Assembly (NCBI GenBank): GCA_028641055.1
Contig: CM054063.1
Coordinates: 175,632,697-175,696,696, forward strand
DNA: 64,000 nt
Reading direction: 5' to 3'
DNA from: Alopecurus myosuroides
Taxonomy: Eukaryota; Streptophyta; Magnoliopsida; Poales; Poaceae
The position numbers and the translations under genes were made by a program. Below, piece after piece: positions 4,283-51,613 of this stretch; the stretch's first letter is position 1; each line of letters begins with the position of its first letter. The notes under the pieces are model-generated. The model was not told the origin of the DNA, made no database searches, and was given only the letters and a program-made list of their open reading frames with translations.

Positions 4283-4284
4283 AC

Positions 4285-6373: not shown

Positions 6374-6382
6374 TATAAATAG
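6374..6382 (+). promoter_or_regulatory. TATA box of the antisense gene, element B
   Basis: TATAAATAG lies in the plus orientation, about 390 bp inside the 3' LTR and about 570 bp upstream of the coding start. The identical 9-mer is at the matching place in element C (41821-41829). It is followed in both copies by a CT- and GC-rich leader with a GTAAGC splice donor (6642 here). Confidence 0.65.
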
Positions 6383-6942
6383 GTACCTAGGGGATAACCT
6401 AACCCCCAACAGTCCATTCCAACTCCTTCTTCCTCCCCATCTCTTGCGCTTGCGCAACACCACCACGGGAACCTCGAGCTCACCGCTGGAGCAAAGCCGT
6501 CGCCGGCTGCGTTCGTCCTCGAACCGTTCCGCGCCGCCGCCAAGCTCCGCCGCTGCGCCCTCATCTTGCCCGCCGGGAATCGCAAAGGGACATTCAGATT
6601 GCGCCATCTGCCGCCGTCGGGCTCTACTCCAATCTCCTCCGGTAAGCTTCTTGCTCCCATTGAATTAGCCTCACAATTTCTTGATTCGTTCTAGATTGGA
6701 TCTAGGTCAACCGCGGGTCATTTCTTACCCCACGCCAGCTTAGGTCGCATAAACTCATACTAGCTCATCCAATGGCTTGAATATAGGCTCCACTTCATTC
6801 TCCTATCGCTTGTAGTCATAAATTTCACCACGAATTTGAAGATGAAACTTCTAATCTAGGCTCGGGCCGCCCAAATTTTCCGCACTTGCCATTGATACCC
6901 GGAAAGTCCGCCTCTTCCGGTTCATTTACTTGCAGTAGATAC

Positions 6943-9900: not shown

Positions 9901-10426
9901 CGTCCCTGCATGGATTGAGCTCTGGAAACGCTCGGCATGCCGGGTTGGGATGACCCGGGGACTTATGCTGGCGAAAGCTTATTTTCCTAAGCTTGAGCCG
10001 GCAACGGTGGTGGCCGGATTTCCAGAATTCAAGGCAGATGGCTCGAGATTTTCCCCCAAGGATTTCAAAGCCGTACAATCCGAGGTACGTCACTCGGCAA
10101 CTGCTCTTGCCGACAGTATGGACTTGAGTAGGTTTATGTCTCCATACGATGCTAAGGACAAAGCTGTGAAGGAAGATACGCCCGTGCCCTTCGACATTTT
10201 AGAAAAGTGGAATGCTGACTCGGCCAGGAGGAGGGAGGAAGCTGCCAAGAGGGAAGCCGAATTGGAATCAGCACCAACTTCCTCTACGCCAACTGTCCGT
10301 CCACCTGTTCGTCCTGATGCTGAAAAACCGGATAATGATGCTAGGAACTCTTCTAAGAAGCAAACCCAAGAACAAGACCCGGAGGGCAAGGGTAAGGATG
10401 TGGACCCGACTCAGGAGGCCAAGTAA
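6943..10426 (+). pseudogene. Antisense gene of element B (PF04195-like, seven coding exons, broken)
   Basis: Comparison with the intact copy in element C gives these exons: 6943-6981, 7166-8105, 8189-8273, 8359-8822, 8907-9302, 9436-9637 and 9738-10426. All introns are GT-AG and the phases match C. Exon 1 (39 nt), exon 3 (85 nt) and exon 6 (202 nt) have the same length in both copies. Exon 2 carries the putative gypsy-type transposon domain (PF04195-like: HVTRGFRPPGH, LSHYGLWVFDIGPNSMLNI). Exons 3-5 are acidic and low in complexity, exon 6 is coiled-coil-like, and exon 7 holds CAGTKWIL and CRVGMTRGLMLAKAYFPKLE. Breaks: a stop at 7568-7570, a frameshift near 7950-8000, a stop at 8550-8552, a one-base loss near 8934, and a stop at 9039-9041. 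The function is unknown. The gene is convergent with pol and does not overlap it. Confidence 0.82.
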
Positions 10427-11578
10427 ATTATTACCTGATGCCATCCTAATACCTTGTTCGCTCGATGCCCTTGTAAAGACAGATATTCTTTTTATAGTGC
10501 AGATGTGCACTTTTGATACTATCATCGCATCATGTAAATACATTATGAAGCTTTAATAGCTTTCTTGGCCCTTCCGGCCTTTGGATATTCGATATCTATC
10601 TGCCTTTGAGCTTATTTACTCTTGATACTCCGATTTACTTTATGGTTCCTTTTGTGAGACTCGGTTTCCGGGTCACATGGGTTTTGACAGGTGAACTTTT
10701 CTCTAAGTCCCCAAGTCCCCAAGACTCAGTTTTTGGGTTTTTGAGCTTGCTAGCTAAGCAACTTTCTCTTTTTCAAAATACCCAGTCCCCAAGGCCCGAA
10801 ATTCCGAGTCTAGGGTGTGAGGTTTCTCAAAGAAAACAGGTTGTTTCTGCTAAGCCCAAAACCTAGAGCCGTTTCACGTAGGTTTTGAAGTTATGCTTAA
10901 TAGACTTTGAGTTTCCGGTTATTAACCCTGTACTCTGCATAACTTGTGGTTTAGATGACCCTTTTGACTCTCTTGTACTGTAAGCCGGCTTTCGCGTGGA
11001 TACCATGTTGTTACATCTGTACGAAAACAGGGTCAGGCAAGTCCCATTGGGCATCATGGCTGATTGTAATCGTAAGCGAGCAAATCATGCCACTTTAGTG
11101 CGAGTCACATCGAGCTTAAGTAAGAAAAGTCAAGAAATTTGGCTCCTTTGTCCGGTTATAAGATTGCAGCCGTACTCATTTGCGAGTAATCGGCCCTTAT
11201 AACTCATAGGCATCATGGCCGGGTCTTTGAGTTTGTAACTGTGCTATTCAAGCAATCAGCCCCCAAGACCTAAATACATGCAACATACTGAAGAAACTAA
11301 TGTACTAAGAAAACAATAAATAATACTTACCTGGAGGAAAAATAAAAACATAACAGAAAAAATAAAACTTGATAAAACATGTGAAAAAGACATATTGCTT
11401 AACCATCTCTTTATTGATATGAGAAAGTTAGGTCAGCAAGACGCCTCATTAAAAAACCTCCAGTCCCCTTAGGTACCCTGGATAGGAAAAGAGTGCGTCT
11501 GAAACCTGCTGCCTGTTACATCGTGTAATTCCACTTGTGAGTCTGGTCTATACTAGGTATAGTAGGGACGCAGCTGAG
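10427..11578. other. Conserved non-coding spacer between antisense gene and integrase (B)
   Basis: This 1.15-kb stretch holds the 3' side of the plus-strand gene and of pol, which converge. The part at about 10885-11265 is strikingly similar to 46280-46665 in element C, seemingly closer than the exons are. It contains a short ORF from ATG 11005 whose frame is not kept between the copies, so I read this as conserved RNA or DNA, not protein. Confidence 0.6.
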
Positions 11579-14500
11579 CTACGTTCCATGGTCTTTCTCT
11601 CTCTTGCATAGATGAAGTGGTATCAGTGTGTCGTTAACCGTAGCCAACTCTTCCCTTGCATCTATCAAGTAATACGATCCATTGTGCAGATTCCGGCTTA
11701 TGATAAACGGTCCTTCCCATGGCGGTGATAACTTATGTTTTCCTTCCTTTGACTGTACCAGGCGCAGAACCAGGTCTCCTTCCTGGAAGACCCGGGTTTT
11801 CACGCGCCGGCTATGATATCTCCGTAGATCCTGCTGATATATGGCTGATCTTTCCAGTGCTTGTTCCCTTTGTTCTTCTAGCATATCCACGGCGTCCTGC
11901 CGAGTCTTCTCGTTCTCCGCCTCGACGTAAGCCGACACTCGAGGCGAGTCATGGATGATATCACTCGGCAACACCGCCTCTGCACCATAAACCATGAAAA
12001 ACGGTGTCATCTGAGTGGATCTGTTATGTGTTGTGTTGATACCCCAAACCACTGCAGGTAATTCTTCGACCCATGCACCAGCAGCTCTGATACACGGAAC
12101 TCGCAATCGTGGCTTTAATCCACGAAGCAACTCTTGATTTGCCCTCTCCACTTGTCCATTAGCCTGTGGATGGGCCACTGAAGCTATGTCAAGCTGGATT
12201 CCATTGTTTCCACAAAATTTCTCCATCTCGCCAAGGGACATATTGGTTCCATTGTCGGTAATTATGCTATGGGGATACCCAAACCGATAGATAATCCTTT
12301 TCAGGAACTTGACTGCTGTAATTGCTTCACAGTTGGTAACTGGCATAACCTCAACCCACTTGGTAAATTTGTCAATGGCCACCAAGAGGTGCGTCTTTTT
12401 GCAAGGTGACATTTGAAAGGGGCCAACCATATCCATACCCCAAACAGCAAACGGCCAAGTTAACGGGATAGTCCGTAGTTCCATAGCCGGCACATGGGTT
12501 TGGCGAGCGTACCTTTGACATCCGTCACACCTTGCAACCAAGCGCTCCGCGTCTGCTAGGGCCGTGAGCTAGAAAAAACCATGTCGATAAGATTTGGCCA
12601 CCAGGGATCTTGTGGATGCATGATGCCCACAATCACCTTCATGGATTTCCTTGAGGATCCGTCGGCCTTCTTCTGGTGCTACACAGCGCAAAAAGACTCC
12701 TGCTGCACTTCTCTTGTATAACTCTCCGTTGATGATAGAATATCCTTTTGCTCACCTCAGAATTTGTCTTGCTAGTACTTCCTGCTGTGGTAACTCGCCC
12801 CGTGATAGGTAGGCCAAGAACGGCTCTGTCCAGTCGGGAACAGCACGTACTGCGGCCACGAGCTCCAAATCCGGGTCTTGATTTGCCAGTTCTTCCTCAG
12901 ACTCGGTTTTAACTGATGGTCGCCGTAGTGCATCCAGGAAAACATTAGGTGGAACCGGCTCTCTGCGCGAGCCGAGTCTGGCGAGTGCATCCGCTGCCTC
13001 GTTTTTTCTTCTGTCTATGTGCTCCACCTCGTACCCGGAGAAACACCCGGCAACTCTATCAACCTCTCTGCGGTATGCTGCCATAGTTGCATCTTTTCTA
13101 TCCCAAGTTCCTGAGACCTGCTGTACCACAAGGTCCGAATCTCCAAAGCATCGTATCCTCTTAATATTCATCTCCTTTGCTACCTTTAAGCCGTGCAATA
13201 AGGCCTCATACTCGGCCACGTTGTTGGAACAATCAAAGTGAATCTGCAGCACGTAGCTCAACTTGTCTCCTTTGGGTGATGTTAGTACCACTCCAGCTCC
13301 TGACCCCTCGTATTGCTTGGAGCCATCGAAGTGCATGATCCAAGACTCGGAGTTTGGAGCCATGGTGGGCATGCCTGTGTGCATCCAATCGTTAATAAAA
13401 TCGACTAGGGCTTGAGATTTGATTGCTGACCTTGGCTCATAGTTGATGTGATAATCCCCCATCTCGATCGCCCACTTGGCTATTCTACCTGTTGCATCCG
13501 AGTTTCTGATGATATCCGACATTGGTATAGAACTCACCACTGTTATGGGGTGTTCCTGAAAATATGGCTTCAATTTCCGGCTGGCCATGAAGACCCCGAA
13601 AACCAGCTTTTGCCAATGTGGATAACGCTGTTTTGCTTCTGATAGTACCTCACTGACGTAGTAAACCGGCCTCTGGACCGGGTATTCTTTTCCATCTTCT
13701 TTTCGCTCGACAACAACCACCGCGCTAACCGCCCGGGGCCCTGCTGCAACGTACAGTAACATAGGCTCTTTAGGACCCGGAGCTGCTAGGACTGGTGCCT
13801 CAGATAGCTGCTTTTTTAGTGCATCGAACGCCTCGTCCGCCTCTTGATCCCATACGAATTTATCAGATTTTTTCAGGAGCCGATACAAGGGTATTGCCTT
13901 TTCTCCGAGTCTGGATATAAACCGGCTGAGTGCTGCTACGCACCCTATGAGCTTCTGAACATGTTTCAAATCTTTCGGCTTTTTCAGACTCTGGATAGCT
14001 TTGATTTTGTCCGGGTTTGCTTCAATTCCTCTCTCAGAAACGATAAAGCCGAGTAATTTCCCGGCTGGAACTCCAAAAACACACTTTGTCGGGTTGAGTT
14101 TCATCTGATACCTTCTCAAGTTCTTGAACGTTTCCTTTAGATCGTCAATAAATGTCTCCGCCTTTCTGGTCTTGATCACCACATCGTCTACATAAGCATG
14201 TACGTTGCGTCCAATTTGGTCCTCGAAGCACTTCTGAATACACCGTTGATAGGTTGCGCCAGCGTTCTTGAGTCCAAATGTCATTGTCTTGTAACAAAAG
14301 GCCCCAAAAGGGGTTATGAACGATGTTTTCTCCCAATCCTCCTTCTTGAGCTTGATTTGATGATACCCGGAATATGCGTCCAGGAAACATAATAGGTCGC
14401 TTCCAGCTACTGCGTCTATGATCTGATCTATCCTTGGTAGGGCAAACGGATCCTTTGGGCAATGCTTGTTGAGACTCGTGTAATCAATGCACATCCTCCA

Positions 14501-17500
14501 CTGATTGGTCTTTTTCATCACGAGAACCGGATTTGCTAACCAGTCCGGGTGAAACACTTCCATAACAAAGCCGGCTGTCAACGGCCGAGCGATTTCTTCC
14601 TCTATAGCCTTCCTTCTTTCCTCATTCATCTTTCTCAAGCCCTGCTTCACAGGTCTGGACTTGGGATCGACGTGCAAACTGTGCTCTGCCAATTCTATGG
14701 GGATACCCGGCATATCGCTAGGCGTCCAGGCGAACACGTCCTGATTTGAATGAATGAACTCCACAAGTGCTTTCTCCTGCTCGCTGTCCAAGTTAGATCC
14801 TATAGCAAATTGCTTGGAGGGATCACCCTCGACAAAAGCTACCATCTTGGTGTCCTGTGCTGCCTTGAATTTTGCTCTCTCATCTTCAGTATTTGGTCTT
14901 TTTAACACTGTTCTGTCATCCGGGTCTACTTGAGACCGGTAATACTTGAGTTCCTCTTTTCTGCAAGCTTGCTCCGCCATGGCTGCATCTCCTTCATCGC
15001 ACTCAGCTGCTATATCCCGGCTCCCATGTATGGTGATGGTCTGCTTGGGCCCCGGGATTTTTAGTTGTAGATACACATCACACGGCCTGGCCATGAACTT
15101 GGCATAAGCCGGCCTTCCGAATAGCGCGTGATAAGGACTGCACAACTTAACCACCTCGAAAGTAAGCCACTCGACTCGATAATTATCCTTTGATTCTCCA
15201 AAAGCTACCTCCAATGTGATCTTTCCCTCGGGGCACGCTGAGTGACCCTGCACAATCCCGTGAAAAACCGTTGAACTCTTCTGTAGCTGAGACTCCTTGA
15301 GACCCATGCGTAGAAAGGTTTCCCAATACAAGATATTGATGCTACTTCCACCGTCCATTAGGACCTTTTTTAGCTCATAACCATTAACCTGAGGTGCCAC
15401 CACCAATGCTAAGACTCCCGGGTGTTCTATCCTTTCCGGGTGATCTCTTCTGCTCCATGTTACGTCCTGCTCTGACCATCTCAGGTATCTCGGAACAGCC
15501 GAAGAAACCGAGTTTACCGCCTGTTTCAGTATCTTTTTATCCTTGTTAGAAATTCCCGTGGTATGCACGTGATATTCTCCCAATTGCTTGGGGTTAGCTT
15601 GGAAACCTCCAGCTCCCCCTTGGTTGTTACCCGGATTTCCGCCTGCCGGGTTACCGGCTGGGGGTGGGCCGTTGCCCGGGTTTCCACCCGGACCCGGTCC
15701 TCCTCCCCGACCTGCACCTCGCATGGCCTTGTTTATCTTCTCGTTCTTCCATCTCTGTAGGTCCGCGCACTGCTCCAATGAGTGGTTAGCCGGCCTACCG
15801 TTCCTGCTGTGCTTTGGATACGCCATTCTGAAGATATCCCAATTGTTACCCGGCCTCGGTGCCCCTTGATAATTTCCTCCATTGTGGTTTCCAGCATTGA
15901 AATTTCCTTCCGCCCTAGGTCTCGAAGACCCGGCTTCTGTGCTAGCGACAAACTCGGAGCCTCCCTCAAACGGGCGCTTGTTCTGGTTGTTCCCATTGTT
16001 ACCTCCATTGTTACCCGGCGTTGATCCATTGCCGGTTCTTCCACTATTATTTGCATTTGCTTTTGGTTTCTTGTCATCAACATCCTCTTCTGTAGTATCC
16101 GTTGCAGCGTGTTTATTGCATGCATCCATTAGCTCTCCCATCGTAACCTCTGAAGCATTTCGACTAGACTTCATGCGTGTTAACTTTTGCACTAAAGTTA
16201 TGTACTTGCACGTCTTCGCCATAGTTTGTAGCGCATCTTTGGGCTGAATATCGGTAGATGAGTGAAGTATCTCCATAACCCGGCGCACCCAGCTGCGCGC
16301 CGATTCTCCTTTCTTTTGTACACATCGCTCTGAGTCATCAATAGTAAATAGCTTTCTGCACGTCCCATGAAAGTGCTTGATAAACGCAGTTTTCAACTCC
16401 TCCCATGACTTGATAGATCCTTCCGGTAAATTAGTGAACCATAACTTTGCTGCTCCTTCTGACATCATCAAGTACATGAACTTGGCTTGAAGATTTTCTG
16501 ATGCATTGCGAATCGACATAGCCATCTCATAACTGCTCAACCATGTTTCTGGATCCATAGTCGGCTCGTAATTCACAACTTTACCCGGTTCCTTGAACTT
16601 ATCCGGGTAAGGCTCAGCTCTGATGTTATCCGACAGACATTTAGGCCCAGCGAGATTAGTCGGAACTGGTCTCACCCGGGAAACATGTGATCCTGCGGGA
16701 GGTGCGGCTGGACGCGGTACGGCTGGTGGCCCATGCACCGCAGACCCGACCGCGACCCTCCTGGCTCTGGAACTATCCACGATAGCTTGTGCTGCTGATG
16801 CTGCTGGTACTACCTGAACGCGGGGAGGAGGCGGCATTTGCTGCTGCTCTTCCCTCCGCCGTGCTGAACTTGTCTGGATATTGCCGGTATTGCCTCGTTG
16901 CTGGCTGATATATGGTGTCCCATGCATTCCACTTCTGTGATCCGGGTAATTAACTTGCTGCGCTACCGCAGTGCGCAATAGATCTATCGCCCGCCGGGTT
17001 TCCTCTGCGTGGGGTGACTCTCTCATGGGGATTTGATTTAATGCGAGCGTTGCTGCATACACATTATCCATGGGGTTGTTGTAATGACCTGCTGGTGTGC
17101 GAAATCGTGATTGTGGTGGTGGTGGTAATGTATTGCCGGCAGCGACTCCAGTCTGCAATGTGGGTAACCCGGCTTGTATGTTTGCCGGCTGTGCTCCTCC
17201 AGTTGCAGGTTGCTGTACGGTTCCTTGGTTTGCTGCCGGAATCGGTTGATCCTGAGGTGTGATAAATAGGTTGGCCGGGTTTATAACTCCACCCGTTGCT
17301 GGTAACATGGTTTGGTGCCTTTGACGCACCCTGGTTGTCTCTTCTCGGAGCCGGGTTTCCAATGCATCGAGCTCACGTTGGCGGGTGGCCATCCCCTGCC
17401 TTTCTGCTTCTACTTGCCTCCTCTGTTGCTCCAATGCACGGCGGGCTACGTCCGGATCTCTGACATGTTCCGCCGCGTTTTTCGGAGTAATAACTGTGGC

Positions 17501-18214
17501 TAAAACGGTTGGATCCAGAATCAAGTTGTTGTTGAATAGGGCCGGGTGTTGCGGGTTTGAAGGACCCGCCCCTGGTGTTCGGTTTGCCAGATATCCAAAC
17601 ATGTTTGCCTGCAACTCGCTGTCCGCCGCGTGGCTGGTAACCAATGCCGATTCTCCGTCAACTCGGGTGAGAACCGGGTTTCCGTCAACCGGACCTTGCC
17701 GCTGGGCCAATGCTGGTGCTGTTCCGACTGTGGCCGCGGTCACGTTCCCCTGATTAAGATTGATCGTCGGGGCCGTGTAAACCGCAACCTGGCGTGTAAT
17801 GCTTGGCGCAGATTCGTACTCTTCCTCTTTGCTGCTATTTTCCTCGTACCGGTTCTCCCGCAGATGCAGGATGGACTCGGTATCATCTTCTCTCATGACC
17901 CGGCCACGCGGGGTCCATGCTGGCTCCTCCGGCTGTTCCCTCTTCGTGGGGGGCTCTTCTGTCGGATATACCGTCCCGACCGATTCTTCTCCATCTGATT
18001 GAACGTGGGTAGCTTCCCCTGACACAGAATCAAATCCGAAATCGTCAGGGATTGAACCAGACGTACGTACCATGCCGATGAAGACGTTGATCTGGCCGAT
18101 TGTCACGACAGATCCGGATTCGAGCAGATCCGACTCTGGCCCCCAGCCGGAATCGTCCACCATCTTCTCTCCTTCGAGGTCGGTGTAGATCTCGCCGATG
18201 ACAAGGTTCTCCAT
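11579..18214 (-). pseudogene. Element B gag-pol polyprotein (two nonsense codons before integrase)
   Basis: A single frame is open from the PBS (18277) to a TGA at 12752-12754. The first ATG is at 18214. Residues here count from 18277. The gag core (GPKCLSDNI, PETWLSSYE) is near 545-720, a degenerate zinc-knuckle region with Gly/Asn-rich repeats near 800-900, and protease VLMDGGSSINI near 976. RT has FLDAYSGYHQI near 1294 and YVDDV near 1362; the RT-linked RNase H is near 1500-1600. A second RNase H near 1645-1775 keeps its acidic residues (HFDGS, AEYEAL, FGDSDL, AADALA). The TGA replaces an Arg codon and a TAG (12569-12571) replaces Trp; both are transitions and neither shifts the frame. Integrase follows (11579-12541), with Asp37, Asp96 and Glu132 in DD(35)E spacing. 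Its last ~15 residues are out of frame relative to element C. The second RNase H marks the Tat group. Confidence 0.9.
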
Positions 18215-18259
18215 GTTCTTCCGAGCTTCTCCCGTGATGTAAACACCCTTGGACGTAGG

Positions 18260-18276
18260 CCCCACGGTGGGCGCCA
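18260..18276 (-). other. Primer-binding site of element B
   Basis: The minus strand reads TGGCGCCCACCGTGGGG, two bases inside the 5' LTR and identical to elements A and C. It primes minus-strand DNA synthesis from a tRNA ending GGCGCCA. Confidence 0.82.
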
Positions 18277-18278
18277 AC

Positions 18279-18753
18279 TATCGTGGGATAATCACAGCAG
18301 GCGTTACCGGGGGTAACTTGTCTTGGGGCAAATCGACTCTGGTGTTTGGGAGAGGGTTTAGCTCAAGGGAAAACATGATGATATGCGATCTGGTAGCCGG
18401 CAATCAAGTCGCCGAGTCTCCGATGTAGATATATTAACTCAACTCTCGTATTACACTGGATACTCGATACCTAGCGATATTGCTCGAACTCTTGGATCTC
18501 TCTCGTCTAACCCTAGGGGCCGGCTTATATAATATCCGGACCCCCTGGCCTACTCTCCAAGGCGTACTCTGAATCCTACCCGGACACTGCTTACAAACCC
18601 TAAACTTCCTTATCGTAACCCACAATCCGGGTTACGAGGCCTACGTTCCTGGGCCTTCTAGAAACTCCTTTATCTTAAGCCGGGTCTTGCGCACCGTCCT
18701 TTGGGCCGAGTTACTCCCTGGCGTTGGCCTACCGGGTTATCATCCCTCCATCA
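18279..18753 (-). repeat. 5' LTR of element B
   Basis: 475 bp, pairing with 5510-5984. Its inner terminal TG has mutated to TA (18279-18280). A TATATAA motif lies on the minus strand at 18535-18541. The outer end CCATCA is followed directly by the target duplication AGAGT. Confidence 0.93.
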
Positions 18754-40624: not shown

Positions 40625-40682
40625 ACAGTCGCTGAGATTCTATTTCCTCCGTCAGAAAAGCATACAACCACAACGATCAGAT

Positions 40683-40740: not shown

Positions 40741-40959
40741 TGGCCGCGCGGAAGGCCACCCCTTTTTCGCTATTTTTCCACCGCGAGGTCTCCGGCCCCA
40801 CCTGTCGGCGCTGGGCCCGCTCGTCAGCCTCCTGGGTAGCCACTCTCCTAGTGAGAAGCGCCCCAGATCCAGATCGGATCTGGAACTTTTCCGTTCCACC
40901 CCCTAGCCTTTCCAGTTTTGCCCTGTAACCCTTCCACTCTCTGTTTCCAACACGCCTAG

Positions 40960-41440
40960 TGTCGTGGGATAATCACGGCAGACGTTACCGGGGGTAACTG
41001 ATCATGGGGCAAGACGACACAGGCGTTTGGGAGAGGGTTTAGCTCAGAGGAAAACATGGTGCAATTCGATCTGGTAGCCGGCAATCAAAGTCGCCGAGTC
41101 TCCGATCTTGATATAACAACTCAACTCTGGGATTACACTAGACGCTCGATATCAAGTGATATTGCTAGGGTTCTTAGATCTCTGTCTAAACTAGGCCTGG
41201 GGGTCGGTTTATAAAGCACCCGTACCCCCTGGCTTACCCTCCAAGGCGCACCCTGGATCCTACCCGGACACGGCGCACAAACCCTAACCTTCCTTTACAG
41301 TAACCCACAATCCGGGTTACCAGGCCTACAAGTTTGGGCCCTCCACTAGTTTCCTTATCCTTAGCCGGATCCTGCGCAGCGTCCTTTGGGACGGGTTACT
41401 CCTTGGGAGTTTGGCCTACCGGGTTATCATCCCCCCATCA
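40960..41440 (-). repeat. 3' LTR of element C
   Basis: 481 bp, TGTCGTGGGATAATCACGG to CCCCCCATCA. TTTATAAA at 41208-41215 is the likely TATA box of the element strand. Confidence 0.93.
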
Positions 41441-41820
41441 GTAGTCCCCAGAATAGCCTGGGCTTCATGGATCCTCCTTGAAGCGCTCGCTATTCCCTGC
41501 AAAGATATCTAACACACATGCATATGGAGGCCGGGTCAAGATGCTTTAATATTCAGTTAGGCCTTACTCCATGGCGGCCATGTAGTAACCCTGGTTTTTC
41601 CTCCAAACACTTTGGTTTAATTTTCCCGGTCCAAACCCTTATAAAAATGCCAAGATCCCTATACTCGATAATCGATCCTGATATCACGGAGTGGATCTCC
41701 TTCTTCCTCTTGTCCAGATGCTTTGCCCAATACTTGGCGCATATCTTGCAGAATCCCCGTGGATAACCATCACCCCACGATTTCCGGCTTCTGGCCGTTG
41801 AGATAGAACCACCCTCGCCT
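41441..41820. other. Gap between 3' LTR of C and antisense promoter
   Basis: This 380-bp stretch has no credible ORF and matches the spacer at 5985-6373 in element B in place and partly in sequence. It likely holds upstream elements of the antisense promoter. Confidence 0.5.
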
Positions 41821-41829
41821 TATAAATAG
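41821..41829 (+). promoter_or_regulatory. TATA box of the antisense gene, element C
   Basis: TATAAATAG, identical to 6374-6382 in element B. The transcript would start near 41850. A leader splice donor CCG|GTAAGC is at 42082/42083, conserved in B. The matching acceptor seen in B (TTGCAG|TAGATAC) reads TTGCGG in C, so use of the leader intron in C is uncertain. Confidence 0.65.
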
Positions 41830-42385
41830 TACTCAGAGGGTAACCCCAAACCCATCACTACACCTCAGCTTCCCCTTTCCTTCATCGCTCCGTACACCCT
41901 CGCAGCGCCACCGCAAGGAGCTTGCGCTCGCCATCGAAGCTAAGCCACCGCCGGCCGCGCTCGCCCTCGAGCCATCTCGTGCCGCCGTCGCGCTAGACTG
42001 TCGCACCTTCGTTCCCCGCGCCAAGAGCCGCAAAGGGGCATTCGAGCCACGCCGCTTAATTTAGCCTCTTGCAGCCTCTCCGGTAAGCCTCTTGCAGCCG
42101 TTTAATTTAGCCCCGCAATTTTTCAATTTATCCAGGATCGGATCTAGGTCAACCCGTGAGTCTTTTTTCCGATTGCATCAAGCTAGATCGATTTGATGCT
42201 CGCCAACTCCTTTAACCACCTGCTAGATAGTTACAACTCATCCTCCTACCATTACTAACCACCAAATCTTCTGTAAAATCGCTCACAAACTTTCCTACCT
42301 AGATCCATTCCTCCTTGATTTTCCGCTCATCGCGTTAACACCCGGAAAATCCTCCTTTTCCAGCTATTTTGCTTGCGGTATACAC

Positions 42386-45300
42386 ATGGGCAACCATCCA
42401 TCTTCCTCAAATGCTTTTCCATACGTAAGTGACCAATAATTTCCACAATTGTACTTAACACCCGGATACCTTGTAATCTCCACTTCATAGCGTGATACCC
42501 GGATAATGCTTAGCTTCATACTTTCTTGTTACCTTATACTCGGATAATCCAACACTTCCGAGTCTTATTTCCTATGCCTCTTTTTCTTGTGTTTTGCAGG
42601 TTGATCCCATGGCTCCCAAACGACAAGGAAAACAGCCGACTCAAGCGAGGACTACCCAAACCATATCCGCCAACTGGGGGCGTTCCACAACTACAAAGGC
42701 CAAGTTGGACGAGCTAGCCGAATTAGGAATTCTCCCTTCTCAGAAGGACATTCACTGGAGGGCGCCGGGCAACGAGACCCGGCCCACACCTGCTGATAAC
42801 GAGGTAATCTGCTTCGTAGAGCACGTGACCCGGGGATTCCGTCCTCCGGGTCACCCTTTCTTCAGGGAGGTCTTAAGCCATTATGGCCTCCGGGTATTCG
42901 ACATAGGGCCTAACTCCATGTTGAATATTACCCACTTCATCGTTCTATCCGAGTCGTACTTGTGCATGCCGCCAAGTTTGACTCTCTTCATCGAACTATT
43001 CCAGTGTAAGCCGTGCCGCGAAAGTGGTGACGGAGCACTTCTTACTTGTGGCGGGGTATCCCTCCAACGCCGCAAGAATTCACCGATGCCAACCCTCAAT
43101 TTAAACTCCCACGTCAAACATTGGCAGCTGTCTTTCTTTTATTGCCACGATACCTCCCCAGACGGCGAAAAGAAACTGCCGGGTTACTCGGAAAGCCTCC
43201 TTGAACCTTCCGAGTCTTTCAACGCCTTTGCACCAGACTCGGACAGGGAGGCGATCCTTCCCTCATTAGCCAAGATAGCCATCCTCTCAGCCCAAGGCCT
43301 CCTCGGGCTAAATTTAGTAAAAACATGGGTTGATTTTCGGATCCAACCCAACTCCATTCGCACCAAATTGATGTGCGAGTATTCGGGGCACACCACAGAT
43401 GCACTCAGATACTCCACCAAGAGCTTTGCGACCGGCGATACCAACAAGACCATCAAGGGCTTCTTAACAGAGAAGCTGGAGGTGATAAAGGGCATCACCG
43501 GGTTACCCCCGTTTACTCGGGAAAACCCGGCTCCGGCGGTAATACCCGATATTCACAACTTATTTCCACATTTTGACTTGATAGAGCTTCTAACCCTTAG
43601 TCTCATTCTTTTGTCTTAGGCTGATGACCCTTTCTGGAGAGTTGAACCCTCCCCCCCCTCCAGAGACCCGGAAGAAGAGGACGAGCCGGCTGATGATAGT
43701 GAAGGTATTCACACAGAATTTGTATATCTTTACTTGTATTATTTTCCTCCCATTTACCTTTTTTCCAACGAACACACATCCGGTTCGCAGGGCTGGAGGA
43801 CGAAGGTGAGACCAACGAGGATGACCCGGAGGCAACCGAGTCTGACCAAGAGGCAACAGTTGGAGGCAAGAGGAAGGCCTGGGGGGCAGTGTCCAAGGTT
43901 CCTTTCTCCTCATTATCCTCTGAACCTTACTCCTTTGACGCCATGCGACGACTTAACCATCAATTATCAAATTCGTCGTGCTTGAAGGATTCTTTCCCAG
44001 CCAAACGCAGAGTAACTCGGAGCTCCCCGGGTGAAGATCCCCTTAATCCGGGCATCTCTACCCCCTCGGTCCCTCGTGCCAGCGCTCCTCCGTCTCGTCC
44101 TTCCGACTCTCCTCAACGCCACCCTTCTCCTAACCATCCACGTGCTGGGCAATTCCGGGTTCCATTAGTGGTCCCTGTGACGACCTCATCTGCTTCTAGC
44201 GGCGAGCTCCCGCCGGACTACACCGTGAATGCCGGGTAAGTTTTTGCTACATGATTTCCTTTTACGTCTGACAAAGTTCCACTCAAGCCACCGTCATCAC
44301 TAATAACTGCCTTTTCTCATCTTTCTTTCAGCACTCAAGTCACCGTCAGTGACCCGGAAAACGTGGAAACAGATAACCATCGGGTGGAGAAGCCGACTGA
44401 TAACGCAGACACCGCGACTGGCGGTGATGCGGCGAATAACCAGGAACAAGGCCCTCTGAACAATCCGCTTCCCCGAGCCGCCGGATCTCCTTCCTCATCG
44501 GAACCAGTAGACGAGGAGATCGAGGTTCTAGATACAAGGATGGGTTCTCCCAACCCGGGTACTCAAACTGTCCGGGTCTCGACTCCAAGGGCGGGGAGAG
44601 CCCCCCCACCAGGTGACCAAGCTGCCGGCTCTTCCGGTACTCGATCCGAGGAACTGACGTTTGCCCAGATGCTGGAAACCCTGCGCACTTTAAGGGCTAA
44701 TGAAGAAAACATCTTGGGGGATTTAATAGCCAAACACGAGGTAAATCCGACTAATGTTGCTTGTGCCCTTGTCCAGTCCCCAAGTTCCGAGTGAATTGAT
44801 TCATAATTTGCTTGGGACTTTATTATACAGGCGACTGATAACTTGCTCCTCTACCCGACTGATCCTTGTTTGCATGCATGCAGTCTTTCGTGACTCAATC
44901 TGAGGAGAAACTGGCAGACGCCACCAAGCTCATCGAAAAGGAGGTAGCTTTGCGTGAAGCAGCCGAAGCTGAGGCCAGGAGGAATAGGCTGATAATGAGG
45001 AAATATAGGAAAAGGGCTCACAAAGCAGAAGATGATCTAACAAGCCTTTCCGTCCAAATATCAGACACATATCGTGCTTTACTTGGTACGTTTCCTCCTC
45101 CGGTTTTACCCTTTTGATAGATAGCAACGGTTTTCCCGACTTACGTTTCCATTTCTTCAGGCCCGGACGAAACCATGCCGGAAGAGGATGACATCGCCAA
45201 GCTGAAAACCATGAAGAGTGTTCTCCGACAGCTATGTGCCGGAACCAAATGGATCCTTCAGGAATTACGGTGGCCGGGTAAAGGACATGTTGATCTGAAG

Positions 45301-45810
45301 AGGATGCTGGATGCCTTCTCCACTATTCCTGAGTGGATTTGGCACTGGAAACGCTCGTCTTGCCGGGTTGGAGTGACCCGAGGGCTTGCACTCGCCAAGG
45401 CTTATTTCCCCAAGCTCGAGCTAGTGAAGCTTATGGGCGGCTTCCCAGAGTTCAAGCTTGATGGATCCAAGTTCTCAGTGAAGGATTTTCAGGCCGTCCA
45501 GAAGGAGGTCCGTTACCCGGCCAGCGTGATTGCTGACGACCTGGATGTTAATATCCTTGTTCCAGCATATGATGTTGCCGGTGAAGCAATTAAGTCAGAT
45601 CTTCCCGAGCCGTATGATATGCTGGCTCGGTGGAAGGAGGAAGCTGCTGCGTTGAGGGCGGAGGCTGCAAAGAAGCAAGCTGAAGCCGGCTCTGCCCCTG
45701 CTACCTCAACACCAGTCGTTCCACCTCCTGCACGGGCTGGTACCGCTGATCCGGGTGCTGCTGCTACCACCAATGATGGCAAGGGCAAGGCCAAGATGAA
45801 CGCCGAGTGA
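42386..45810 (+). CDS. Intact antisense gene of element C: seven-exon PF04195-like protein (922 aa)
   Basis: Inferred exons are 42386-42424, 42600-43538, 43620-43704, 43791-44235, 44332-44740, 44884-45085 and 45161-45810. The six introns (75-175 nt) are all GT-AG, and phases 0,0,1,2,0,1 chain into 923 codons with no internal stop. Exon 1 encodes 13 residues starting MGNHPSSS, a possible N-myristoylation signal. Exon 2 carries the gypsy-type transposon domain (PF04195-like): CFVEHVTRGFRPPGHPFFRE, LRVFDIGPNSMLNI and LSESYLCMPPS. Exons 3-5 are acidic and Ser/Pro-rich, and exon 6 is heptad-like coiled coil (EKLADATKLIEKEVALREAA). Exon 7 has CAGTKWIL, CRVGVTRGLALAKAYFPKLE and an Ala/Pro-rich tail. 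The gene lies between integrase and the 3' LTR, opposite and convergent to pol. Related Tat elements are known to carry antisense ORFs here. Biochemical role unknown; PF04195 is only a similarity label. Confidence 0.82.
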
Positions 45811-46875
45811 TATCTGATCTCTAATGCCTCTTCTTATGCACCGGTCGGTCAACATGTTGTTTAAACAGTTATATTTTGGGTGGTGCGCCTGTGCACCTTT
45901 GATATCTTTTCGCCGGGATTTTGTAATGCACGCTAAGGTCTTGATATACTCTATGCCTCTTCCGACCTTTTTAAGTTTATCCATTATTGAGCTCATCTGT
46001 TCTCGATATCCGGCTTTCTTTATTGTTCCTTTTGTGAAAACTCGATTTCCGGGTCTCATGGGTATTGACAAGCGGATTTGCTTCTAAGTCCCCAAGTCCC
46101 CAAGACTCGGATATTTGGGTTTTTGGAATTCTACAAGTAAGCAATTTTTTCTCTTTTCAAGATTTCAAGTCACCCGGACCCGGATCTCCAAGTCTAGGAC
46201 ACTTGATCTTGAAAGGGGAACGACCTGCCTACTGCTAAATTCACAAGGATCCCTGAGTTGTTTCACATAGGATTTGAAGTTATGCTTAATAATCGTTGAG
46301 TTTCCAGCTGTTTAGCCTTGTACTCTGCATAACTTGTGGTTTAGATGACCCTTTTGACTATCTTGTACTGTAAGCCGGCTTTCGCGTGGATACCATGTTG
46401 TTACATCTATACGAAAACGTAGCCAGTCAAGCCCCGTCGGGTTTCGTGACTGACTGTAATCGTAAGCGAACAAATCATGCCACTTTAATGCGAGTCACAT
46501 CGAGCTTAAGTAAGAATAGCCAAGGAATTTGGACTTCTTTGTCCGGTTATAAGATTGTAGCCGTACTCGTTTGCAAGTAATCGGCCCTTATAACTCATAG
46601 GCATCATGGCCGGGTCTTTGAGTTTGTAACTGTGCTATTCAAGCGACCAGCCCCCAAGACCTAGATATACGCATCATACTGAGAGTACATAACCTGATTA
46701 GAACCATCTCTTTTCTTGATAATCACCTCTTTACTTGATATGAAAAATCTAGGTCAGCAAGCCGCCTCATTAAAAACCCGTCCAGTCCCCAAAGGTACCC
46801 TGGATAGGAAAAGAGTACTTCTGAAAACCTGCTGCCTATTACATCGTTCAATTCCATATGCCAATACAATTTTTG
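45811..46875. other. Conserved non-coding spacer between antisense gene and integrase (C)
   Basis: It holds the 3' flanks of the two convergent genes. The segment at about 46280-46665 is nearly the same as 10885-11265 in B. A 64-codon frame (46386-46580) matches one in B only until a one-base indel, so I do not call it a gene. Confidence 0.6.
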
Positions 46876-49800
46876 CTAAGTATAATATGGACGTAGCTGA
46901 GCCACGTTCCACGGTCTGTCTCTTTCTTGCATAGATGAAGTGGTGTGAGCAGTGTCATTAACTGTGGTCGACTCTTCCCTTGCATCTATCAAGTAGTATG
47001 ACCCATTATGCAAATTCCGGCTTATGATAAACGGTCCTTCCCAGGGTGGTGATAACTTGTGCTTTCCTTCGTTTGACTGTACCAGGCGCAAAACTAGGTC
47101 TCCTTCCTGGAAGACCCGGGTTTTCACGTTCCGGCTATGATACCTTCGTAAATCCTGCTGATATATGGCTGATCTTTCCAGGGCTTGTTCCCTTTGCTCT
47201 TCTAACATATCCACGGCGTCTTGCCGGGTCTTTTCATTCTCCACTTCGACGTATGCTGACACTCGTGGTGAATCATGGATAATATCACTCGGTAGTACTG
47301 CCTCCGCGCCATAGACCATGAAGAAGGGTGTCATCTGAGTAGATCTATTAGGCGTAGTATTGATGCCCCAAACCACAGAAGGGAGTTCTTCGACCCATGC
47401 GCCAGCTGCCCTGATACAGGGGACTCGTAATCGTGGTTTTAACCCGCGAAGCAATTCTTGATTTGCCCTCTCCACTTGTCCGTTGGCCTGCGGATGAGCT
47501 ACTGACGCGACGTCAAGTCGGATTCCATTGTTGCCACAGAACTTCTCCATCTCACCAAGGGACATGTTGGTTCCATTGTCGGTAATTATGCTGTGGGGAT
47601 ACCCGAACCGGTAGATAATCCTCTTCAGGAACCTGACTGTTGTGGCTGATTCGCAATTAGTAACTGGCATAACCTCAACCCACTTGGTAAACTTATCAAT
47701 AGCCACCAAAAGATGTGTCTTCTTGCATGGTGACATATGAAAGGGGCCAACCATGTCCATACCCCATACAGCGAACGGCCAAGTTAACGGGATCGTCCGT
47801 AACTCCATAGCCGGCACATGGGTTTGGCGAGCGTACCTTTGACATCCGTCACACCTTGCTACCAATCGCTCCGCATCTGCTAGAGCCGTGAGCCAGAAAA
47901 ATCCGTGTCGATAAGCTTTAGCCACGAGAGATCTTGTGGATGCGTGATGTCCACAGTCGCCTTCATGTATTTCCTTGAGAATCTGTCGGCCTTCTTCTGG
48001 CGCTACGCAGCGCAAAAAGACCCCTGCTGCGCTTCTCTTATATAGTTCCCCGTTGATGATAGAATATCCCTTTGCTCGCCTCAAAATTTGCCTTGCTAAT
48101 ACCTCCTGCTGTGGTAGCTCGCCTCGCGACAAGTAGGCCAAAAACGGTTCTGTCCATTCGGGAACAGTACGTACGGTAGCCACAAGTCCTGAATCCGGGT
48201 CTTGGTTTGCCAATTCCTCCTCTGACTCGGTTTTAACTGATGGTCGCCATAATTCATCCAGGAAAACGTTAGGTGGAACCGGCTCTCTGCGCGAGCCGAG
48301 TCTAGCGAGCGCGTCGGCTGCCTCATTCTTTCTTCTGTCTATATGCTCCACCTCATACCCGGAAAAACATCCTGCAATCCTATCAACTTCCCTGCGGTAT
48401 GCTGCCATAGTTGCGTCCTTTCTATCCCAAGTTCCTGACACTTCCTGTACTACGAGGTCCGAATCTCCGAAGCACCGTATCCTCTTGACGTTCATCTCCT
48501 TAGCTGCCCTTAGGCCGTGCAATAGGGCCTCATACTCGGCCACGTTGTTGGAACAGTCGAAGTGGATTTGTAGTACGTAACTTAGTTTATCTCCTTTGGG
48601 TGACGTTAGCACCACCCCAGCTCCTGATCCCTCGTATTGCTTAGATCCATCGAAGTGCATGATCCATGATTCGGAATTCGGAACCGTTGTAGTCATGCCT
48701 GTATGTGTCCAGTCGTTAACGAAATCAATTAAAGCTTGAGATTTGATTGCTGACCTGGGTTCGTAGTTGATGTGATAATCCCCCATTTCTATCGCCCATT
48801 TGGCTATTCTTCCCGTCGCGTCCGAGTTTCTGATGATATCCGACATTGGTATTGAACTAACCACTGTTATGGGGTGTTCTTGGAAATACGGCTTCAATTT
48901 CCGGCTAGCCATAAAGACCCCGAACACCAACTTCTGCCAATGTGGATAGCGCTGCTTTGCTTCTGATAATACCTCGCTGACGTAATAAACCGGTCTCTGA
49001 ACCGGGTAACCTTTCCCGTCCTCTTTGCGCTCTACAACAACTACTGCACTGACGGCTCGGGGGCCAGCTGCCACGTATAGCAACATAGGCTCTTTAGGAC
49101 CCGGCCCCGCTAGTACTGGTGCTTCAGATAACTGCTTCTTTACTGCCTCAAACGCCTCATCCGCCTCTTGATCCCACACGAATTTATCTGATTTCCGCAA
49201 GAGCCGGTACAAGGGTATTGCCTTTTCTCCGAGTCTGGATATGAATCGGCTCAAGGCTGCTACGCAGCCCGTGAGCTTTTGAACATGCTTCAAATTTTCC
49301 GGTTTTTTCAGACTCTGGATGGCCTTGATTTTATCCGGGTTTGCCTCGATTCCTCTCTCGGAAACTATAAAGCCGAGTAATTTCCCGGCTGGAACTACGA
49401 ACACGCACTTTGTCGGGTTAAGCTTCATCTGGTACCTCCTCAAGTTTTTGAACGTCTCCTTTAGATCATCGATAAACGTCTCCGCCTTCCTGGTCTTGAT
49501 GACCACATCATCCACATAGGCGTGGACGTTGCGTCCGATTTGGTCCTCGAAGCACTTTTGAATACACCGTTGGTAAGTTGCACCGGCGTTCTTCAATCCA
49601 AACGTCATAGTTTTATAACAGAAGGCCCCAAAAGGGGTTATGAATGATGTTTTCTCCCAATCCTCCCTCTTGAGCTTAATCTGATGATACCCGGAATATG
49701 CGTCCTGGAAGCATAATAGATCGCTTCCAGCTACTGCATCTATAATCTGATCTATCCTTGGTAGCGCGAACGGATCCTTTGGGCAATGCTTGTTGAGACT

Positions 49801-50478
49801 CGTAAAATCAATGCACATCCTCCACTCATTGGTCTTTTTCATCACTAGAACCGGGTTTGCCAACCAATCCGGGTGAAATACTTCCATGATAAAGCCGGCT
49901 GCCAATAGCCGAGCGATCTCTTCACCTATGGCCTTCCTTCTTTCCTCATTCATTTTCCTCAAACCCTGCTTCACGGGCCTGGACTTGGGATCCACATGCA
50001 AACTGTGCTCGGCCAGCTCTGTTGGGATACCCGGCATGTCGCTAGGTGTCCAGGCGAACACGTCTGCATTCGAACGAATAAACTCCACAAGTGCCTTCTC
50101 CTGTTCTTTTCCCAGGTTAGACCCTATGGTAAACTGCTTAGTGGAATCACCTTCGACAAAATCTATCTTCTTGGTGTCTTGTGCTGCCTTGAATTTTGCT
50201 CTCTCATCCTCAGTATTCGGCTTTTTCAAGGCTGTTCTATCATCCGGATTTACTTGAGACCGGTAAAATTCGAGTTCTTCCTTTCTGCATGCTTGCTCGG
50301 CCATAACCGAATCTCCTTCGTCGCACTCGGCCGCTATATCCCGGTTCCCATGTATGGTGATGGTCCGTTTAGGACCCGGGATCTTTAGATGTAAATACAC
50401 GTAGCACGGCCTAGCCATGAATTTGGCATAAGCCGGTCTTCCAAACAGTGCGTGATAAGGACTGCGCAATTTGACCAC
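46876..50478 (-). CDS. Element C pol: protease C-terminus, RT, RNase H, second RNase H, integrase (1200 codons, open)
   Basis: The frame is open from just below the TGA at 50521-50523 to the stop at 46876. The first codon of the listed span is GTG, so there is no true start; this is the continuation of gag-pol. Order: end of protease (FGRPAYAKFMARP), RT (MCIDFTSLNKHCPKDPFALP, YSGYHQIKLK, YVDDV), RT-linked RNase H (YYVSEVLSEAKQRYPHWQKL), second RNase H (HFDGSKQYEGSGAG, AEYEALLHGL, FGDSDLVVQ, NEAADALARLG), then integrase. Integrase has an HHCC finger (HEGDCGHH...CDGC) and DD(35)E catalytic residues (WGMDMVG, ITDNGTNM, GQVERANQ), ending RPWNVAQLRPYYT as usual for gypsy integrases. The Arg and Trp codons that are stops in B are intact here. 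One RT residue differs from B at FQDAYSGYHQ (B has FLDAYSGYHQ). Confidence 0.88.
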   Translation of the reverse strand: MVKLRSPYHALFGRPAYAKFMARPCYVYLHLKIPGPKRTITIHGNRDIAAECDEGDSVMAEQACRKEELEFYRSQVNPDDRTALKKPNTEDERAKFKAAQDTKKIDFVEGDSTKQFTIGSNLGKEQEKALVEFIRSNADVFAWTPSDMPGIPTELAEHSLHVDPKSRPVKQGLRKMNEERRKAIGEEIARLLAAGFIMEVFHPDWLANPVLVMKKTNEWRMCIDFTSLNKHCPKDPFALPRIDQIIDAVAGSDLLCFQDAYSGYHQIKLKREDWEKTSFITPFGAFCYKTMTFGLKNAGATYQRCIQKCFEDQIGRNVHAYVDDVVIKTRKAETFIDDLKETFKNLRRYQMKLNPTKCVFVVPAGKLLGFIVSERGIEANPDKIKAIQSLKKPENLKHVQKLTGCVAALSRFISRLGEKAIPLYRLLRKSDKFVWDQEADEAFEAVKKQLSEAPVLAGPGPKEPMLLYVAAGPRAVSAVVVVERKEDGKGYPVQRPVYYVSEVLSEAKQRYPHWQKLVFGVFMASRKLKPYFQEHPITVVSSIPMSDIIRNSDATGRIAKWAIEMGDYHINYEPRSAIKSQALIDFVNDWTHTGMTTTVPNSESWIMHFDGSKQYEGSGAGVVLTSPKGDKLSYVLQIHFDCSNNVAEYEALLHGLRAAKEMNVKRIRCFGDSDLVVQEVSGTWDRKDATMAAYRREVDRIAGCFSGYEVEHIDRRKNEAADALARLGSRREPVPPNVFLDELWRPSVKTESEEELANQDPDSGLVATVRTVPEWTEPFLAYLSRGELPQQEVLARQILRRAKGYSIINGELYKRSAAGVFLRCVAPEEGRQILKEIHEGDCGHHASTRSLVAKAYRHGFFWLTALADAERLVARCDGCQRYARQTHVPAMELRTIPLTWPFAVWGMDMVGPFHMSPCKKTHLLVAIDKFTKWVEVMPVTNCESATTVRFLKRIIYRFGYPHSIITDNGTNMSLGEMEKFCGNNGIRLDVASVAHPQANGQVERANQELLRGLKPRLRVPCIRAAGAWVEELPSVVWGINTTPNRSTQMTPFFMVYGAEAVLPSDIIHDSPRVSAYVEVENEKTRQDAVDMLEEQREQALERSAIYQQDLRRYHSRNVKTRVFQEGDLVLRLVQSNEGKHKLSPPWEGPFIISRNLHNGSYYLIDAREESTTVNDTAHTTSSMQERDRPWNVAQLRPYYT

Positions 50479-50520
50479 CTCGAACGTGAGCCACTCAACT
50501 CGATAATTATCCGTCGATTC

Positions 50521-50892
50521 TCAAAAAGCAACCTCCAAGGTGATCTTTCCCTCGGGGCTCGCCGAGTGACCTGGCACGATCCCATGAAAGATTCTCGAAC
50601 TTTTCTGTAACTGGGACTCTTTAAGACTCATCCGTAAGAAGGTTTCCCAATAAAGGATGTTGATGCTACTTCCACCGTCCATCAGGACCCTCTTCAGTTC
50701 GTAACCATTAACCTGTGGAGCGACCACCAATGCCAAGACTCCTGGACGCTCTACTTTTTCCGGATGATCTCTTCTACTCCACGTTACCTCCTGTTCTGCC
50801 CATCTAAGGTATTCCGGCGCGGCCGACGAAACCGAGTTTGCCGCTTGCTTTAATGTCTCTTTGTCCCTGCTAGAAGTTCCTGTAGTATGCAC
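50521..50892 (-). pseudogene. Element C protease N-terminal part, ended by a nonsense codon
   Basis: This is in the same frame as pol and is homologous to element B residues ~900-1020. It contains VLMDGGSSINILYWETFLRM, with the protease active-site Asp. It ends at TGA (50521-50523) where B has a Gly codon (a G-to-T change). The part upstream is the junction of the gag deletion, so no initiation signal for this frame is present. Confidence 0.8.
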
Positions 50893-50906
50893 ATGATATT
50901 GTCCTT

Positions 50907-51113
50907 TTAAATCAGGTGACGTACCATACCGACGAAGATGTTGATCCGGCCGATCGTCACCATAGATCCGGACTCGAGGTGATCCGACTCTGGCCCCCAG
51001 CCGGAATCGTCCACCATCTTTTCTCCTTCGCGGTCGATGTAGATCTCGCCCACGACAAGGTTTTCCATGTTCTTCCGAGCTTCTCCCGTAATGTAAACAC
51101 CTTTGGACGCAGG
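50907..51113 (-). pseudogene. Element C gag N-terminal remnant
   Basis: The frame just inside the PBS gives the family gag N-terminus (KNMENLVVGEIYIDREGEK, DSGWGPES, IGRINIFVGMVR). It then breaks off at HLI and a stop near 50907. In B the same start continues for ~830 more codons to the position that reappears in C at 50892. The gag core and nucleocapsid region have been deleted. Confidence 0.78.
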
Positions 51114-51130
51114 CCCCACGGTGGGCGCCA
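51114..51130 (-). other. Primer-binding site of element C
   Basis: TGGCGCCCACCGTGGGG on the minus strand, two bases inside the 5' LTR, as in A and B. Confidence 0.82.
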
Positions 51131-51132
51131 AC

Positions 51133-51613
51133 TGTCGTGGGATAATCACGGCAGACGTTACCGGGGGTAACTGATCTTGGGGCAAGACGACACAGGCGTT
51201 TGGGAGAGGGTTTAGCTCAGAGGAAAACATGGTGCAATTCGATCTGGTAGCCGGCAATCAAAGTCGCCGAGTCTCCGATCTTGATATAACAACTCAACTC
51301 TGGGATCACACTAGACGCTCGATATCAAGCGATATTGCTAGGGTTCTTAGATCTCTGTCTAAACTAGGCCTGGGGGTCGGTTTATAAAGCACCCGTACCC
51401 CCTGGCTTACCCTCCAAGGCGCACCCTGGATCCTACCCGGACACGGCGCACAAACCCTAACCTTCCTTTACAGTAACCCACAATCCGGGTTACCAGGCCT
51501 ACAAGTTTGGGCCCTCCACTAGTTTCCTTATCCTTAGCCGGATCCTGCGCAGCGTCCTTTGGGCCGGGTTACTCCTTGGGAGTTTGGCCTACCGGGTTAT
51601 CATCCCCCCATCA
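51133..51613 (-). repeat. 5' LTR of element C
   Basis: 481 bp, pairing with 40960-41440. TTTATAAA lies at 51381-51388. It is followed by target duplication CCTAG (51614-51618). Confidence 0.93.

Follow-up and report, generated by a model that had tools for sequence, protein, structure and literature searches.

A probable spliced and selected antisense gene and a recurrent ACCCGG word in a gag-less Retand-type retrotransposon of blackgrass

The stretch analysed here, 64,000 nucleotides of Alopecurus myosuroides (blackgrass) from contig CM054063.1 of assembly GCA_028641055.1 (positions 175,632,697 to 175,696,696, forward strand; hereafter the window, in whose own coordinates positions are given), contains a long terminal repeat (LTR) retrotransposon without gag, element C, which carries a predicted seven-exon gene on the strand opposite its pol. 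Many flowering plants have abundant Retand elements. Antisense open reading frames (ORFs) with the TRP28 domain (PF04195), lying between pol and the 3' LTR, are already known as a feature of these elements; a DNA-binding, regulatory role has been proposed for them (Vicient 2025, PMC11963269). By its domain order element C is of the Retand type (Tat clade, Ty3/gypsy): its pol ORF has a second RNase H (RVT_3, PF13456, 623-740) between RNase H (449-582) and integrase (842-1010), an order stated alike for Ogre and Retand, where this RNase H is of archaeal type (PMC6317226), and the antisense TRP28 frame lies between pol and the 3' LTR. On the evidence given here, the antisense gene is multi-exon, under strong purifying selection and kept even where gag is absent. 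The features of element C are as follows.

40953..51613, minus strand: element C, gag-less Retand-type LTR retrotransposon (from self-BLAST, pol domains, and LTR and primer-binding-site edges)
40953-41440 and 51126-51613: LTRs of element C, 488 nt, 98.8% alike
46876..50520, minus strand: pol of element C, with reverse transcriptase, RNase H, second RNase H (RVT_3) and integrase
50904..50919, minus strand: gag-deletion junction
41821..41829, plus strand: putative TATA box TATAAATAG, candidate own promoter of the antisense gene
42386..45810, plus strand: antisense gene, 922 amino acids (aa), about 101 kDa, isoelectric point 5.65 (computed)
42386..42424, plus strand: exon 1, 39 nt, with the ATG and donor GTAAGT
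42600..43538, plus strand: exon 2, 939 nt
42807..43010, plus strand: match to PF04195 Transposase_28 (TRP28), aa 83-150, E 4.8e-20
43620..43704, plus strand: exon 3, 85 nt, with a C-run that differs in length between copies
43651-43658: the variable C-run of exon 3
43791..44235, plus strand: exon 4, 445 nt, P/S/T-rich
44332..44740, plus strand: exon 5, 409 nt, acidic
44884..45085, plus strand: exon 6, 202 nt, charged and proline-free, with a coiled coil judged by eye only
45161..45810, plus strand: exon 7, 650 nt including the stop, conserved C-terminal domain

The original prediction had placed seven exons and six GT-AG introns here, joined in phase and antisense to pol, and the sequence bears this out. 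The chain is open as claimed, at a length of 922 codons plus a stop (2769 nt); the 923 codons first given had included the stop. Intron phases are 0, 0, 1, 2, 0 and 1. The expected PF04195 domain scores 72 bits against a curated cut-off of 26.2 and is the sole Pfam domain above its curated cut-off in the product, which also has several computed basic clusters. A protein database search with the full 922-aa product returned no relative, and a search of plasmid records no match; the exon-2 product alone found 7 relatives, and a search with its alignment 55. From an alignment of 56 sequences the exon-2 product is predicted to fold with confidence over 289 of 313 residues (predicted local distance difference test (pLDDT) 88.9, predicted template modelling score 0.89), against a pLDDT of 37 without a deep alignment.

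A copy of the same gene lies in element B, a gag-bearing relative in the window.

5512..18750, minus strand: element B, gag-bearing relative of C, LTRs 470 nt, 97.9% alike
6943..10426, plus strand: antisense gene copy of element B, same seven exons, broken in exon 2
6943-6981, 7166-8105, 8189-8273, 8359-8822, 8907-9302, 9436-9637 and 9738 onward: its exons 1 to 7

Its exon borders are those of C, with 39, 85 and 202 nt for exons 1, 3 and 6 as had been noted before, and all six introns are GT-AG (AG before exons 2-7, GT after exons 1-6); exon 2 is broken, having an in-frame stop and a length that is off by one base. For close copies we took C and the 20 top places, out of 127, by exon-2 protein score, omitting two with a match 3 bases shorter. 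GT-AG is present in 120 of the 126 donor-acceptor pairs over these 21 copies, and four of the six exceptions come from L039 and L046, both rearranged in the gene region. Two further related loci, L068 and L069 (86% and 79% TRP28 identity), keep 12 of 12 and 11 of 12 splice dinucleotides. B, L068 and L069, at synonymous divergences (dS) of 0.95-1.8, thus have the exon borders of C with altered introns (lengths 175/81/86/96/143/75 in C, 182/82/87/83/122/93 in L068 and 159/97/77/83/165/94 in L069); exons 1 and 6 measure 39 and 202 nt in all four lineages, and exon 2 is 939 nt in three of the four, with one extra base in B.

More distant relatives are known as proteins. Seventeen of the 56 sequences were inspected by eye, of which 12 extend to the exon-2 border. 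In 11 of these a valine (GTN codon) stands at the border, three times one residue later, and no common sequence follows; one of the 11, P0005, reads through into an exon-3-like stretch. The twelfth, P0008, an annotated Alopecurus aequalis protein, has joins whose borders correspond to exons 2|3 and 6|7 (both by eye). The misannotation that had been anticipated for such a gene is seen in this one case: the P0008 model joins homologues of exons 2, 3, 4, 6 and 7 and lacks part of exon 2 and any counterpart of exon 5 (by eye).

The coding frame is under constraint. Overall, the ratio of nonsynonymous to synonymous rates (dN/dS) between B and C is 0.22; exon 2 alone gives 0.11 and exon 7 gives 0.27, and in the wrong frames of these two exons the values are 1.1-2.1. 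C against L068 gives 0.15 (dS 0.95) and C against L069 0.22 (dS 1.77), with 0.54 in exon 4 alone. Variants were also counted in 18 close copies (the rearranged L039 and L046 and the 11% diverged L037 were dropped), with the neutral expectation for ratios of nonsynonymous (N) to synonymous (S) changes taken from introns and flanks. Variants shared by at least 2 of the 18 copies give S=110 and N=42, a ratio of 0.17, and private variants S=123 and N=136, a ratio of 0.49 (Fisher p about 1e-6); with L037 included the ratios are 0.18 and 0.70. Because copies were picked by exon-2 protein score, the counts for exon 2 have a bias in favour of constraint; exons 3-7 played no part in the choice, and the exons other than 2 give 0.20 shared against 0.56 private. 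By exon, the shared ratios are 0.10 in exon 7, 0.05 in exon 6, 0.29 in exon 4 and 0.33 in exon 5. In a second sample, the top 10 places by exon-6 DNA (the window copy and nine others, of which L055 is the same place as L050 of the first sample), exons 4, 5 and 7 give 0.18 shared and 0.46 private, classes that are not clearly different (Fisher p 0.05). L054 was dropped from the variant counts, being the window's own copy. Purifying selection has kept the protein sequence of the large exons. Selection in the source copies, as first proposed, is thus upheld by dN/dS of 0.15-0.22 between subfamilies and by the shared-private contrast, which is what selection in source copies followed by relaxed evolution after insertion predicts.

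Several observations weigh against an intact spliced gene. A frame that stays fully open as far as the final stop is present in only 5 of the 21 copies; the other 16 have a premature stop or frameshift, and in 13 of these exon 3 is not 85 nt (mostly 84 or 86), mostly at the C-run. Outside exon 3 the 18 copies have four exon indels, none a multiple of three. No intron-free (processed) copy of exons 5-6-7 was found among the 40 best-scored of 3,244 candidates, and the exon 6|7 junction has no genome match at up to 3 mismatches. The exon-3 length changes may be decay after insertion, a weak point of the gene model or assembly error, the last being possible because the blackgrass assembly was built from PacBio continuous long reads (PMC10108218). 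The broken copies would suit a chance or decayed reading that merely joins unrelated ORFs; this is contradicted by the borders common to four diverged lineages and by the strong frame-specific constraint, which rule out a chance join, and we consider it highly improbable. Hardly more credible is that the antisense unit works as RNA, through double-stranded RNA or antisense interference, with the open frame as a by-product. Antisense transcripts of Ty1 and others do regulate their elements (PMC7264820, PMC12786077), but this reading is contradicted by the large exons, whose dN/dS is far below 1, and by splice borders that are conserved between diverging introns, and the codon-level constraint rules out an RNA without a protein. 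We conclude that this is very probably a real antisense gene, spliced and under selection. Slippage, or just possibly a regulated frame, could also be imagined at the exon-3 C-run.

The antisense transcript would be spliced from its seven exons, transcription and splicing both being read from the sequence. The sequence TATAAATA lies 565 bp 5' of the ATG in C, inside the element and outside the LTR, and is found upstream of the gene in 21 of 21 copies and in element B (at 6374), L068 and L069. The gene is therefore likely to have its own TATA promoter, internal and 381 bp away from the LTR edge. The antisense accessory gene HBZ of human T-cell leukaemia virus type 1 (HTLV-1) also belongs to a retroelement and encodes a nuclear regulator (PMC11963269, PMC7264820), but the HTLV antisense promoter is in the 3' LTR. 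Gene23 of maize Grande (Gomez-Orte 2013, via PMC7264820 and PMC11963269) is an accessory gene that runs antisense in the 3' internal region, has its own promoter and encodes a nuclear protein. From the basic clusters and the reviews' account of gene23, the protein described here is probably nuclear too.

Introns can persist through retrotransposition in this arrangement because the packaged genomic RNA is the other strand, on which these GT-AG pairs are not splice signals; placing a gene on the opposite strand is hence a simple route to intron retention in a retroelement. A review of December 2025 calls plant LTR elements generally intron-less, with Ogre and EVADE as exceptions (PMC12786077). 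These also have spliceable introns within an LTR retrotransposon, but theirs serve gag-pol transcripts, through subgenomic RNAs and partial splicing (PMC12786077, PMC6317226), whereas the six introns here are antisense. The gene shares its antisense orientation, its place between pol and the 3' LTR and PF04195 with the Retand ORFs of Vicient, among whose clusters gag-less ones (mostly Poales) also occur. However, that study scored single ORFs (at least 600 bp, or shorter if TRP28-bearing), and the word 'intron' is absent from its main text (PMC11963269). A seven-exon gene with conserved borders, measured selection and a cognate-looking DNA word go beyond what is described there. A 2020 review had called for the study of antisense and spliced transcripts (PMC7264820). 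In the literature searched, which left subscription papers such as the gene23 paper and Steinbauerova 2011 outside, we found no earlier report of spliced antisense retrotransposon genes or of the ACCCGG word described below; within that scope, the spliced gene structure and the motif array appear to be new.

The gag of element C had been described as dead. It is indeed missing, C being without about 2.5 kb that contain gag in B, but this is no local accident, as the deletion junction is common to at least 40 genome copies. A 261-bp junction probe matches in full length at 98-100% identity in all 40 best-scored of 4,161 candidate places (the window's own included; these being the best-scored only, they imply no share of the family), and for at least 15 of the 40 an exon-2 or exon-6 match, found separately, is located at element distance. 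The gag-less lineage has therefore multiplied, presumably as a trans-mobilised form that has kept the antisense gene. Of the 63 clusters of Vicient 2025, 7 have no GAG domain and a further 2 have neither GAG nor AP (PMC11963269). PF04195 is also the most frequent domain in two tables of blackgrass extrachromosomal circular DNA (PMC10606437), which suggests that such elements are active in this species.

One short word is spread over the elements that carry the gene.

40953..51125: 44 ACCCGG/CCGGGT sites in element C, coding and non-coding, both strands
40953..51125: wider set of ACCCGG, ACTCGG, AGCCGG and ATCCGG, 108 sites in element C

Among about 2,040 6-mers, ACCCGG shows the strongest over-representation in both C (44 against 5.2 expected) and B (63 against 6.0, with one LTR of B counted). 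It is split 20/24 and 28/35 between the strands, and it also comes out on top when C pol, B gag-pol and the antisense gene are each taken on their own. The best word reaches z = 16 and 22 in the two elements, against at most 6.4 in simulations of them and 6.6-8.9 in five other real stretches. Two control stretches of the window hold 1 site in 13.9 kb and 4 in 7.35 kb (pooled, 5 against 4.1 expected). Synonymous shuffling leaves 6.5 sites against 32 seen in B gag-pol, 2.2 against 13 in C pol and 3.9 against 19 in the antisense coding sequence, with 0 of 1000 shuffles reaching the observed count in each, which rules out codon usage or protein sequence as the source in these three coding sequences; in the short integrase ORF of B alone the word is not significant (90 of 1000 synonymous shuffles). 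Of the copy-sites, 94% have the word intact, compared with 77% for CpG-bearing controls. Of the 13 ACCCGG sites in C pol, 10 also occur in B, compared with 35 of 85 for 47 pooled control words. No regular, nucleosome-like spacing was found in the array.

In a scan of single-base variants of B and C, position 2 takes G, T and weakly A, position 3 takes T, and positions 1, 4, 5 and 6 tolerate nothing clearly; this pattern is not present in pooled other DNA. The array resembles a footprint left by a protein that binds double-stranded DNA, with a consensus of roughly A-N-Y-C-G-G. 'ANYCGG' is a rough name, because A at position 2 is weak in B and C and not accepted in L068 or L069. Repeat decay is disfavoured as a source, since B and C show no enrichment of the CpG-decay words ACCCAG and ACCTGG; in L069 all three position-4 variants, ACCTGG included, stand at about twice expectation (5-6 against 2.4). 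RNA self-pairing is disfavoured as well, since enrichment is seen for AGCCGG, which would not pair, but not for the wobble word GCCCGG, although the enriched variants ACTCGG and ATCCGG are wobble-compatible. ANYCGG is a directly testable candidate target, filling the element on both strands beyond effects of protein sequence and codon usage.

The word may follow the TRP28 protein. L068 and L069 hold ACCCGG 32 times against 2.5 expected and 20 times against 2.4, with a tolerance similar to that of B and C (G or T at position 2, T at position 3) except that A is not accepted at position 2. In L064, whose TRP28 is only 30% identical, the top words are TACCCG (13 against 1.6) and TACTCG (15 against 1.9), with tolerance at position 4 only, a suggestive preference for TACYCG in a distant PF04195 element. 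L067, also at 30% identity, has CACCCGA seven times against 0.5 expected, a hint of a possible third word and a weaker one than that of L064. In element A (listed below) no word clearly dominates, ACCCGG ranking 65th (6 against 2.1), and in the PF04195 loci that resemble host genes (L061-L063, L065 and L066) the ACCCGG word was not found. A change of word where TRP28 is distant is thus suggested; it fits co-evolution, in few elements.

Other observations count against tying the word to the antisense protein. L064 still carries ACCCGG at 9 against 2.7 expected; its best z of 8.5 exceeds its own null maximum of 7.6, yet falls inside the 6.6-8.9 of the five unrelated real stretches; simple repeats reach z 10.5 and 11.1 in L066 and L067. 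L068 and L069 have the history of the entire element in common, so that the word could be that of integrase or of a host factor, and co-variation cannot single out the antisense protein because integrase travels with TRP28. The predicted exon-2 fold matched no solved structure of the PDB in fold searches, which leaves DNA binding without structural support. A real and selected gene in an element whose ANYCGG array is read by integrase, Gag or a host DNA-binding protein would account for these points, the word and the antisense protein both being co-inherited with pol and no DNA-binding fold being recognised. We nevertheless regard it as quite improbable: a host reader poorly explains the TACYCG preference of L064, itself only suggestive, and the antisense protein is an accessory protein whose relatives are predicted to bind DNA (PMC11963269). 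That the antisense protein itself, rather than integrase or a host factor, reads ANYCGG has in our judgement an even chance of being right.

Beside these comparisons, L061, L063 and L065 lie within a cluster of about 2 Mb at C1:541.7-543.7 Mb, and together with L062 and L066 they are possible domesticated or ancestral TRP28 genes; GCC/CGC words are abundant in L061 and L063, as in host genes. In L064 the PF04195 frame and a gag-like frame (1-1342, 2951-3949) are on the same strand, unlike the antisense order of B and C, which may reflect two adjacent elements or a sense-strand layout.

A model for such a protein is provided by VANC of the VANDAL elements (Hosaka 2017, PMC5735166), likewise encoded by an intron-bearing transposon gene and with constant and highly variable parts. 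Its short word is enriched in the cognate family, rare elsewhere and different between families; here, too, the word is enriched in C and B (44/5.2 and 63/6.0) and rare in the control stretches within the window. In contrast, VANDAL elements are DNA transposons and not LTR elements, and the VANC21 word is without CG, mainly non-coding and often in one-orientation tandem repeats (PMC5735166), whereas ACCCGG also occurs in coding sequence and on both strands, a further point against the analogy. The antisense protein would work like VANC without being a member of that family, kinship having been checked by the Pfam scan alone, with only PF04195 above cut-off. For Grande gene23, the review account describes no motif array (PMC7264820).

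The explanation that we favour, at about even confidence, is that the selected antisense gene encodes a probably nuclear TRP28 protein which would bind the ANYCGG word arrayed across its own element and, by this analogy, protect it from CG and CHG methylation, as VANC proteins do for VANDAL elements. Silencing escape has the best circumstantial case among the functions first guessed at (silencing escape, RNA export or integration control) because of the motif array. In a different species, sunflower, CG methylation of Retand elements drops locally while CHG methylation stays high (PMC12844716), as would fit a word that contains CG. Anti-silencing as the purpose of the protein nevertheless stays a tentative proposal, which we think rather less probable than its failure. 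A spliced, selected gene whose ANYCGG-binding protein serves integration targeting, nuclear import of complementary DNA (cDNA), activation of transcription or RNA export fits the exon chain, the selection and the motif evidence equally well. Gene23 of Grande, the antisense product in a similar position, is nuclear with its own promoter (PMC7264820), and a whole-element, two-strand array would suit packaging or import of double-stranded cDNA. Coverage of the whole element, synonymous sites included, exceeds the need of a promoter or attachment site, and we take these functions to be unlikely, though worth serious attention.

A bolder reading, held at somewhat below even confidence, is that Retand elements may carry a sequence-specific chromatin system of their own. 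An antisense gene with several introns, which its strand would protect from being lost, would encode a TRP28 protein of a fold not found in the PDB, and this protein would read a word that contains CG and is specific to the family; the element's synonymous codons would have been rewritten to carry that word every ~200 bases, and protein and word would co-evolve, both being kept even in gag-less lineages. If the protein does read ANYCGG, it would be an LTR-retrotransposon counterpart of VANC, give PF04195 a function and possibly account for the silencing escape of a large family.

The remaining features of the window surround the two elements.

1-4860: element A, a further gag-bearing element, cut by the window edge
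4868-5509, 18754-21555, 39309-40963 and 51614-59603: host repeat stretches around B and C

By self-comparison the host repeat is several kb long and present in tandem-like copies, B and C each being inserted in related copies of it. A satellite of about 358 bp forms two arrays (35571-39309 and 59592-62326) on either side of the repeat that hosts element C.

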